In this document: in pieces, positions 20,987-33,942 of the stretch | How positions within the stretch are numbered: the stretch's first letter is position 1 | Layout of the letters: each line of letters opens with the position of its first letter | NCBI GenBank assembly: GCA_030682405.1 | Contig: JAUXOF010000052.1 | Span: forward strand, 1 to 41,006 | DNA from: Thermodesulfovibrionales bacterium | Lineage (GTDB): Bacteria; Nitrospirota; Thermodesulfovibrionia; Thermodesulfovibrionales; JdFR-86 | DNA length: 41,006 nt | Direction of reading: 5' to 3' | Program-made: the position numbers and the translations under genes | The notes under the pieces: generated by a model | Database searches by the model: none | What the model was told of the DNA's origin: nothing | The model's input: only the letters and a program-made list of their open reading frames with translations

Positions 20987-21025
20987 GCGCCCCTGAAGCG
21001 CGCCCCTGAAGCGCGCCCCTGAAGC
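20987..21025. repeat. 13-bp perfect tandem repeat, three units
   Basis: GCGCCCCTGAAGC occurs three times head to tail without any change (20987-20999, 21000-21012, 21013-21025), followed by GGGG. It fills the gap between the pnp stop and the M16 start. In minus-strand RNA each unit contains TTCAGGGGC, which can pair with GCCCCTGAA located just after the pnp stop (complement of 21058-21066). Confidence 0.85.
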
Positions 21026-21072
21026 GGGGACAAAAGAAATCCGGCGCTGAAGCCGTTTCAGGGGCTGCCTTT

Positions 21073-31456: not shown

Positions 31457-33415
31457 TCAAAGGAATTCTTTTTGCAGTTGTTTTTGAAGCAGCCTGACTT
31501 CTGGGTATTTTTGGGCATGGGGTTCGATGCTTTCGATGAATGATTCAATCTCCTTTTTGTTTTTTGTAAGTTTCAGGTAGTTCATGTAATATGCAAGCCC
31601 TGACGGAGTGATTAACTTTGTGGCGTCCTCATAGAGTTTTTGGGAAAGCGCGGTGTTCCCTTCTTCCCTCTGGAGGTATGCGTAATGGGTTATGGTTATG
31701 AAATAAGACATCTTTAAATCTATTGAAAACGGGTCGGCTGCCTTTTCATCCAATGCCCTCTCGTAAACGAACATCCCGAATGCCGTTTCAATATCTTTTT
31801 TATGCTGTTTTTCATCCATCATGGATTCCTTGGGAAAAAGCCTGTAGCCGTGGATGTAGGGCGTCGGGGTGAAATATTTCTTTAGCTTATCCGAAAGCCC
31901 GATAAAGTCAAAGGCAAAAAGCCTTCCCTGTTCCGCATATATTTCGTCTTTGCCTGTAAAGAGTTTTCCCTGAGCCAGTTCCGGAAAAAGTATCCGGTAC
32001 TTCCATACCGGGTTTACCTGAGATATGATTCCGCCTTTATCGCCCATTAAAACAGGCGCATCATCCCTCTTTCTTTCAATGAGGCTCTTATAAAAGACAG
32101 GGAAGTACGCCGCATCCGGCCCTGTGATGACAACGCTGACTACAGGGAGGCTTTCAAGCAGATTGTTTGAGAAATCCTCGGCAAGATAAAAATTACTAAG
32201 GTCATTGTCCTTTAGATTATGGGGCAGGGCGAAGACAAACGGCAGAAGGACTATTCCGATGGCAAGCGGCTTTGCACTTGATGCGAAGCGTTCCTTTAAA
32301 GGCTTTATCAAGTACCATAGCCCCCATCCGGCATTGACGGAAACAAGATAAAGCACCGGTAGCATATAAGGGCTGTTGAAGTAATTGCTTTCGTCCGTCG
32401 GGCTTCCGAATGCAAATACCATTGCCGAAAGAACGGCCCCGTAAGACAGAAGGGAAATCAGCGAATAGGCAAGCAGTGGTTTTCTCCGCCAGAGATAGGG
32501 TATGGAAAATGCCGGAAGGAGGCTGAAAAGACCCATGTTGGAGAAAATAAGATACCTTGCCGTGTTGAGCGCCCCTCTATAGAATCTTATGGGTTCTCCG
32601 GCTGGAGATGCTATTGAAGGCAGGCTTGAGCCGTACTCTTTTCTGAAAAAGGTGACAAATAATTTTTCCAATGAGCCTGAATCCGAGTAAGTGAAAAGCA
32701 GTCCTTCGGGGAAATATTTTAATGAACGGATATGGCTGAAAATATGTACGCTCATTCCGATGGAGATTAAAAAAAGACAGAGCAAGACGTTTCTGCCTCT
32801 TTTCTCGCCCGGGCCTGCGATGCAGGCGAAAATCAAGGGAAAGAGCATGAAGCCTATTGTGTGGTGGTTTCCCATGCCTATGCCAAGAAATAGAGAGGAT
32901 AGAAAGACTGTGTTTATGCCGGGGCTTTTAAAAGTCCCCGCCTCAGAGGACGAAGGGGGCTGTAAACCCCGCAGGCAGAGATAAAATATCAGCATTGTAA
33001 GGGCGGAGTTCAGGGTGTATACCTCCGCCTTAACGGACTCTGTCCATGCAAGGGGCAGGAAGGCTGAAAGCAGCGCTGAGAAGATTGCCGTTGCGGTATC
33101 CTTTGTAAGCATATGGACGGATTTAAAAACCAGGAGGGATGCCGCCGCACCGCACAGGGCTGAAAAGAGATTAATCTTATATGCGATGCTTCCCATGGGG
33201 ATGAATGTGATGAGCTTTCCCAAAAGGACATAAAGCGGATAGCCCGGAGGATGCGCCGGGCCGAGGGCAAAGGCCGATGCGTAAAAAAGCGGGCTGTCTC
33301 CGTTATAGACGGAAGGGCATAGGTACAGCAGGTAGATAAAAAAGATAATGAAAAACATGATAAAAGGTATGTTTTTTTCGGATGGTTTCAAAATCGGAAA
33401 CTTAAAGCGGGGCAT
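31457..33415 (-). CDS. DUF2723 polytopic membrane protein (glycosyltransferase-C-like)
   Basis: A 652-residue protein with about ten to twelve membrane helices and a soluble C-terminal part (about 430-652) that looks helical and repeat-like. The first loop VYNGDSPLFYASAFALGPAHPPGYPLY, with Asp and His residues facing outside, is the hallmark of DUF2723 and of GT-C sugar transferases that use polyprenyl-phosphate sugars; substrate is unknown. ATG 33415 lies at the edge of the loop of a perfect 16-bp hairpin. A second Met at 33358 would start just before the first helix, and neither has a clear ribosome binding site. Codons for LQPPSSSEAGTFKSPG lie in two small palindromes (32921-32970), possibly an inserted element. 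Confidence 0.8.
   Translation of the reverse strand: MPRFKFPILKPSEKNIPFIMFFIIFFIYLLYLCPSVYNGDSPLFYASAFALGPAHPPGYPLYVLLGKLITFIPMGSIAYKINLFSALCGAAASLLVFKSVHMLTKDTATAIFSALLSAFLPLAWTESVKAEVYTLNSALTMLIFYLCLRGLQPPSSSEAGTFKSPGINTVFLSSLFLGIGMGNHHTIGFMLFPLIFACIAGPGEKRGRNVLLCLFLISIGMSVHIFSHIRSLKYFPEGLLFTYSDSGSLEKLFVTFFRKEYGSSLPSIASPAGEPIRFYRGALNTARYLIFSNMGLFSLLPAFSIPYLWRRKPLLAYSLISLLSYGAVLSAMVFAFGSPTDESNYFNSPYMLPVLYLVSVNAGWGLWYLIKPLKERFASSAKPLAIGIVLLPFVFALPHNLKDNDLSNFYLAEDFSNNLLESLPVVSVVITGPDAAYFPVFYKSLIERKRDDAPVLMGDKGGIISQVNPVWKYRILFPELAQGKLFTGKDEIYAEQGRLFAFDFIGLSDKLKKYFTPTPYIHGYRLFPKESMMDEKQHKKDIETAFGMFVYERALDEKAADPFSIDLKMSYFITITHYAYLQREEGNTALSQKLYEDATKLITPSGLAYYMNYLKLTKNKKEIESFIESIEPHAQKYPEVRLLQKQLQKEFL
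32921..32970. repeat. Paired palindromes inside the DUF2723 coding sequence
   Basis: GGGGCTTTTAAAAGTCCCC (32921-32939) and GGGGCTGTAAACCCC (32956-32970) lie 16 bases apart and in frame in the gene. In the sense (minus) RNA the second reads GGGGTTTACAGCCCC, a 6-bp stem with a three-base loop, as in the galT and dapB leaders. The encoded residues form a polar loop between membrane helices. Confidence 0.45.
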
Positions 33416-33436
33416 GGGAATGCCCCGCTTTAAGTT
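33399..33436 (-). terminator. 16-bp perfect hairpin after the pilin gene, containing the next start codon
   Basis: AACTTAAAGCGGGGCA (33399-33414) and TGCCCCGCTTTAAGTT (33421-33436) are perfect complements around a six-base loop. It begins four bases after the pilin-like stop codon and would end or stabilise that message. The ATG of the DUF2723 gene (33413-33415) lies at the loop edge, so the far arm encodes its first residues. No strong T-run follows on the minus strand; GTTTTTAG follows on the plus strand. Confidence 0.6.
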
Positions 33437-33440
33437 GTTT

Positions 33441-33848
33441 TTAGTTGACAGTAAGCTTGCCTACGCCTGTGATAATTTTGCCACTGGCGTCTGTAGAGAC
33501 AGTGAAATAACCGGTCTTTGTTCCTCCGCCGATTATGTTTTCGCCATCTACGACGTAAACCGAATTGTTAAGCTGGTTTATCTTAAGGGAACCCGGGTCG
33601 CCTGATATGTTGGTATTTACATCAATAATAGACGGATTTCTTTTAACCGAGGCAATCGTGATGCTGTATGCCGAGGTGAGGTGCCCGTAAAGACCGCGGA
33701 TTGCCGCATTTTCCGCATCCTCCCGAAGGTCAATATATTTCGGAATCGCAACTGCCGCAAGGATTCCCAAGATGATGATTATCATCACAAGCTCGATAAG
33801 CGTGAAACCACCTTTGTTGTTTAACTTGCTGAACATTCTAAACCTCAT
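33441..33848 (-). CDS. Type IV pilin-like protein (PilA/pseudopilin type)
   Basis: A 135-residue type IV prepilin-like protein. A short basic leader ends in GG; cleavage after Gly14 would give a mature N terminus FTLIELVMIIIILGILAAVAIPKY, with the conserved Glu at mature position 5 that guides assembly. The globular part is small (about 95 residues) and lacks an obvious C-terminal Cys pair. It could be the major pilin, a minor pilin or a type II secretion pseudopilin; no pil or gsp genes lie beside it. AGGAGG-type sites precede the ATG, and a sigma-54-like promoter lies 79 bases upstream, as is usual for pilA. The MglA/MglB pair in this window may relate functionally, by inference only. Confidence 0.88.
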   Translation of the reverse strand: MRFRMFSKLNNKGGFTLIELVMIIIILGILAAVAIPKYIDLREDAENAAIRGLYGHLTSAYSITIASVKRNPSIIDVNTNISGDPGSLKINQLNNSVYVVDGENIIGGGTKTGYFTVSTDASGKIITGVGKLTVN

Positions 33849-33926
33849 TCTAAGCCTCCTATGCCTCCTGTTAATTAATCCCCAATGGGAATTGGTGCAA
33901 ATAAATAAGTCTGCATTTAAATAAAC

Positions 33927-33942
33927 TGCATTTAATATGCCA
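33927..33942 (-). promoter_or_regulatory. Sigma-54-type promoter for the pilin gene
   Basis: Minus strand TGGCATATTAAATGCA keeps the GG and GC pairs with the ten-base spacing of the -24/-12 consensus (TGGCAC-N5-TTGCA), differing at three less critical bases. Transcription would start near 33915 and give a leader of about 65 bases. Pilin genes are commonly driven by sigma-54 with a PilR-type activator; no such activator gene is in this window. Confidence 0.6.

Follow-up and report, generated by a model that had tools for sequence, protein, structure and literature searches.

Gene organization at the locus

The stretch of DNA analyzed here (the window) comprises 41,006 nucleotides of a contig from a Thermodesulfovibrionales bacterium (JAUXOF010000052.1, assembly GCA_030682405.1). 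On its minus strand, a type IV pilin-like gene (33441..33848), bearing the GFTLIEL N-methylation motif (PF07963), is followed by a hairpin (33399..33436) and then by a co-directional gene for a glycosyltransferase-type membrane protein (31457..33391; 644 aa if begun at the TTG at 33391). This protein is a member of the TMEM260-like family PF11028, presumably the former DUF2723, with a Pfam score of 97.6 bits against a curated cut-off of 24.2. The pilin gene has the Shine-Dalgarno sequence AGGAGG (33855..33860, minus strand; anti-Shine-Dalgarno duplex of -10.2 kcal/mol), and 94 nt upstream of its start lies a sigma-54-like promoter motif, TGGCATATTAAATGCA (33927..33942, minus strand), which agrees at 10 of 11 positions with the sigma-54 consensus. 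Only 49 nt separate the pilin stop from the TTG, and these are mostly occupied by the hairpin, so that a promoter for the second gene would hardly fit unless it lay within the pilin coding region. Elsewhere in the window (21002-21065), short repeats of the GCCCCTGAAGCG type, partly inverted, adjoin a gene end.

The genome of this bacterium includes 14 pilin-like genes, two of which have a TMEM260-like gene downstream. These two are the only ones to combine a post-stop hairpin of -15 kcal/mol or stronger with a sigma-54-like site matching at least 10 of 11 positions; the next-strongest hairpin, after a pilin without a TMEM260-like neighbor, reaches -14.9. The genome sample has 0.013 sites of the 10/11 grade in 400 nt of a single strand. 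The second pair (L012/L098, contig C36) has an additional pilin-like gene downstream. One PF00437 match in this genome (contig C48, 15434-15982) was assigned an open frame of 24274 aa, which exceeds what the contigs of this analysis would lead one to expect and is probably a tool or masking oddity.

The hairpin after the pilin gene

After the pilin stop TAA (33443-33441, minus strand) come the four bases AAAC and then AACTTAAAGCGGGGCAT-TCCC-ATGCCCCGCTTTAAGTT (33436-33399), a perfect stem closed by a 4-nt loop. The preliminary description had placed a perfect 16-bp stem four bases past the pilin-like stop. The inverted repeat is real, far above chance, and both its perfection and its spacing from the stop were correctly given; its length is 17 pairs and not 16. 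Folding of the hairpin region as RNA gave a z score of -5.99, with none of 200 shuffles as good. The best hairpin within the 90 nt after the stop has an energy of -27.6 kcal/mol, compared with a shuffle mean of -2.1, and was likewise matched by 0 of 200 shuffles. It is the longest perfect inverted repeat (loops of 3-10 nt) in 347,288 bases of the genome, window included, and the strongest post-stop hairpin among 288 gene ends of the 347-kb genome sample, these ends being rough calls by longest ORF.

The core pattern of the hairpin was found at a single place across the genome, and a dispersed repeat or mobile palindrome was rejected on that ground. An Rfam element was also rejected: the sole match in the window, sraA, lies on the opposite strand with an E value of 0.28 and 27.3 bits, the gathering score being 56, and was judged to be due to chance. 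A GC-rich, stable stem-loop of 17 bp lying 4 nt past the end of a gene has the form of a rho-independent terminator. The U-tract on the sense strand is poor: TTTAAGTTT falls mostly within the arm and is followed by TCCGATTTTG, with 5 T in the 10 nt after the full stem, and a terminator scan called this site on the opposite strand only.

Recurrence of the hairpin in related genomes

The comparison covered 37 pilin/TMEM260-like loci of the Nitrospirota class to which the window belongs. Loci lacking an N-terminus, an upstream pilin motif or a tblastn hit were left out (L046, on the same contig as L006, L036, L028, L032, L035, L038, L047-L049 and L054-L059), as was L061, and doubles were counted once (L001/L009, L002/L011, L003/L039, L004/L013, L005/L017, L010/L060 and L007/L008). 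Of the further matched places that had no locus of their own, a part was retrieved, 10 of them in one round.

At each locus we scored the best hairpin in the 90 nt downstream of the first pilin stop (of the second in G162); in 34 of the 37, no more than 1% of shuffles equalled it. Hairpins of -15 kcal/mol or stronger were present in 32/37, compared with 1/37 when an equally long piece of coding sequence upstream of the stop was scored. No convincing post-pilin hairpin was found in G058 or G084, where 200/200 and 57/200 shuffles matched, and that of G005 has only 5 bp (16/200 shuffles). Among the window, its paralogue and the five nearest relatives, six of seven stems range from -14.3 to -27.7 kcal/mol. 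Hairpin sequences vary between families, and cores are common to close relatives; the 37 loci are therefore not 37 independent cases. Between the window and G003, counting pairs outward, pairs 1, 3 and 4 have changed on both sides and are still paired, and pair 5 is broken in G003. This recurrence supports the earlier proposal that the hairpin marks the end of the pilin message.

The number of T residues in the 10 nt after the stem is also low in some relatives (4 in G003, 3 in G001, 2 in G140, 0 in G179). Better U-tracts occur in wider relatives, with 9 of 10 in G067 and 8 each in G064 and G102; the paralogue and G221 have 6. A sigma-54-like site of at least 10/11 precedes the pilin motif by no more than about 400 nt in 17 of the 37 loci; the remaining 20, including most loci of genus g14, have no site of this grade there. 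In two relatives' loci (L050 and L051, contigs C3 and C18 of G015), what appear to be inserted palindromic repeat units lengthen the spacer from the pilin to the membrane protein.

Fourteen of the 37 loci carry two pilins, and 12 of these have a hairpin of 7 bp or more between the two genes, suggesting that the hairpin is part of the message end of the first pilin, presumably the major one. In six of the 14, just one standard start lies further than 45 nt upstream of the membrane protein's conserved motif, and it overlaps the end of the second pilin. We also scored pilins without a TMEM260-like neighbor in five relatives. Of 67 pilin matches, 30 had loci; from these we set aside 4 without a readable stop, L117, which had been scored at a wrong place, and 3 preceding a TMEM260-like gene, and 6 of the 22 that were left have a hairpin of -15 or stronger. 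In three of these six (L104, L106 and L109), another pilin-like match follows at a distance of 600-738 nt. The notion that the hairpin is specific to the pilin/TMEM260-like pair, which is true in the window's own genome, fails in the relatives and was dropped; the hairpin appears instead to mark certain pilin messages.

The start of the membrane protein

Three in-frame codons were considered as the start of the membrane protein, all on the minus strand. The ATG at 33413..33415 opens both the 3' arm of the hairpin and the longest reading frame (MPRFKFPILKP...), and had been taken as the start, with the far arm encoding the first residues. An ATG at 33356..33358 had been offered as an alternative. 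The third codon, a TTG at 33389..33391, lies 7 nt past the stem, and has no Shine-Dalgarno sequence (-0.9 kcal/mol).

The N-terminal best segments of the five nearest relatives (G003, G005, G001, G221 and G015_a) are 39-58% identical to the window protein. In all five, the open frame contains no ATG, GTG or TTG inside the hairpin. Counting from the conserved GDS motif, a single such codon lies further upstream than 45 nt, namely a TTG at -84 to -90. In the window the TTG stands at -90, and the relatives' TTGs align with it and not with either ATG. The gap from stem to TTG is 7-11 nt in all five (measured in four; counted by eye in G005, with its 5-bp stem), and a Lys or Arg codon directly follows each TTG. 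G005 and G015_a have one extra TTG, inside the first-helix region. G003 keeps the hairpin core and the same in-stem, in-frame ATG, yet there ATG CCC CGC ATA TAA ends the frame before the TTG, so that this ATG cannot start the G003 protein. Anti-Shine-Dalgarno energies at the six TTG starts, those of the window and the five relatives, are -2.9 to +0.9 kcal/mol, and those of their pilins -10.2 to -14.0; Shine-Dalgarno usage across ORFs (116/202) was too crude to rely on.

Judged from these alignments, the true start is probably the TTG at 33391. The in-stem ATG is probably unused, and the membrane protein as translated probably does not include MPRFKFPI; annotation by longest frame would add these eight residues, most of them encoded by the hairpin arm. 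The ATG at 33358 is indeed present in frame, but none of the five nearest relatives has a Met at the corresponding position, and the codon lies inside the first membrane helix, which a start there would truncate. The earlier suggestion that folding hides the start is not supported for the start codon itself, which probably lies outside the stem. A weaker form of it stands: the stem ends 7 nt short of the TTG and so within the footprint that a ribosome usually covers, and folding could still hinder initiation.

A start near this position also appears in genus g14, where all six single-pilin loci have an ATG at -87 or -90 from the GDS motif; in the remaining two of the 8 g14 loci, G102 has an ATG at -90 among three candidates and G078 an ATG at -105. 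A universal start position was nevertheless rejected: G064, G189 and G188 have a start at -114 that shares bases with the pilin stop, G078 starts at -105, and other families vary. The distance from pilin stop to start ranges from 37 to 70 nt. In the paralogue (L012), three codons are candidates for the start, and two of these lie immediately downstream of the pilin stop. Pilin stop and membrane-protein start overlap (TAGTG or TAATG) at three loci (L041, L043 and L017), and there the hairpin would be translated as part of the protein's N-terminus.

Possible function of the hairpin

We consider it likely that the hairpin forms the 3' end of the pilin message, as a leaky terminator, a barrier to trimming or both, and that read-through together with a TTG lacking a Shine-Dalgarno sequence keeps the membrane protein scarce. 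This reading builds on the hairpin itself, the fact that it recurs at this place while its sequence varies, the start position past the hairpin that near relatives conserve, the missing Shine-Dalgarno sequence and the promoter-like motif. RNA polymerase would start at the sigma-54-like promoter upstream of the pilin gene, and most transcripts would stop at the hairpin, or be trimmed back to it, yielding abundant pilin mRNA. A minority would read through into the TMEM260-like gene, to be weakly translated from the TTG just past the stem. The two genes would thus work as a pilin-accessory cassette, with the hairpin keeping pilin at a high ratio over the glycosyltransferase-like protein; from their adjacency, we infer that the membrane protein modifies the pilin. 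The earlier idea that the hairpin limits expression of the membrane protein is, by comparison with other genomes, probably correct, although not by way of a start codon in the stem.

The hairpin might act purely on mRNA stability, with no real termination: RNase cleavage and 3' trimming would halt at the stem, so that the pilin mRNA would be stable and the downstream message unstable. The stable stems in six of the seven closest cases and the poor U-tracts of the window, G003 and G001 are consistent with this, whereas the good U-tracts of G067, G064 and G102 point to termination at least there. We regard a pure stability role as possible but rather unlikely. It overlaps the trimming branch of our main explanation; the readings weighed here are not exclusive, and their probabilities do not sum to one. 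Because the U-tract is poor in the window and in some relatives, sequence cannot separate a leaky terminator from a stability hairpin. The proposal that translation begins at the in-stem ATG, and only once the stem is opened, draws on the longest frame, on a Shine-Dalgarno-like stretch upstream of that ATG (-6.9, itself within the stem) and on G025, which likewise has an in-frame ATG in its hairpin. We find it very improbable, since four of the five nearest relatives have an open frame with no ATG, GTG or TTG in the hairpin and the in-frame ATG of the fifth, G003, runs into TAA. The resemblance of FPRF in G005 to MPRF arises through the hairpin arm, and the G005 frame opens there with no standard start before the TTG.

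The folded hairpin could also bridge the pilin stop and the TTG, allowing ribosomes that have completed the pilin to reinitiate just beyond it. Such translational coupling, which could coexist with termination, would suit a TTG without a Shine-Dalgarno sequence, as well as stems that end 7-11 nt upstream of the TTG in the window, G003, G001, G221 and G015_a and 6 nt upstream of one of the three candidate starts in the paralogue; other families have a start that directly overlaps the pilin stop (TAATG, TAGTG). The variable stop-to-start distance, the weak stem of G005 and the hairpins that follow pilins without a TMEM260-like neighbor argue against it, and we think coupling quite unlikely. A combined role, for the Nitrospirota class of the window, would have the hairpin serve both as leaky terminator and, in read-through RNA, as a physical gate 7-11 nt before the TTG, where mainly ribosomes coming from the pilin gene would start, dosing a TMEM260-like enzyme dedicated to pilin glycosylation; this appears unlikely.

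Comparison with known systems

If termination or trimming at the hairpin is the correct explanation, the cassette logic of proteobacterial pili would extend to Nitrospirota. The comparison also corrects the likely start of the membrane protein to the TTG at 33391. The main point of interest is the link between a bacterial TMEM260-like family and type IV pilins, which makes this family a candidate for pilin glycosylation. Literature searches for DUF2723 and for Nitrospirota pilins together with glycosylation and terminators found no paper on it. The eukaryotic TMEM260 O-mannosyltransferase belongs to the same Pfam family; unlike it, the protein described here is bacterial, adjoins a pilin and is a predicted enzyme known from sequence. 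The hairpin resembles a rho-independent terminator in its GC-rich stem, A-rich 5' flank, T-rich 3' arm and position right after a stop codon, and differs in its interrupted, weak U-tract on the sense strand and in the gene start within 7 nt.

The closest parallel is the pilin-terminator-accessory-gene cassette described for Pseudomonas (PMC11841053). According to that paper, point mutations in the terminator of a P. aeruginosa cassette raised the accessory protein TfpY, and cross-complementation was possible when cassettes kept their native terminator; TfpO and TfpW are glycosyltransferases, and the terminator was proposed to attenuate the accessory gene. The window shows this order as well, with a pilin gene, a hairpin immediately past the stop and an accessory gene running in the same direction, and 34 of the 37 loci have a significant hairpin. 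Unlike the Pseudomonas cassette, that of the window lies in Nitrospirota, has a TMEM260-like (PF11028) accessory gene and a U-tract that is weak in its lineage, and appears to start its accessory protein at a TTG past the stem without a Shine-Dalgarno sequence. By this analogy, the predicted regulatory layout is one already known from Pseudomonas, although both the phylum and the enzyme family differ.
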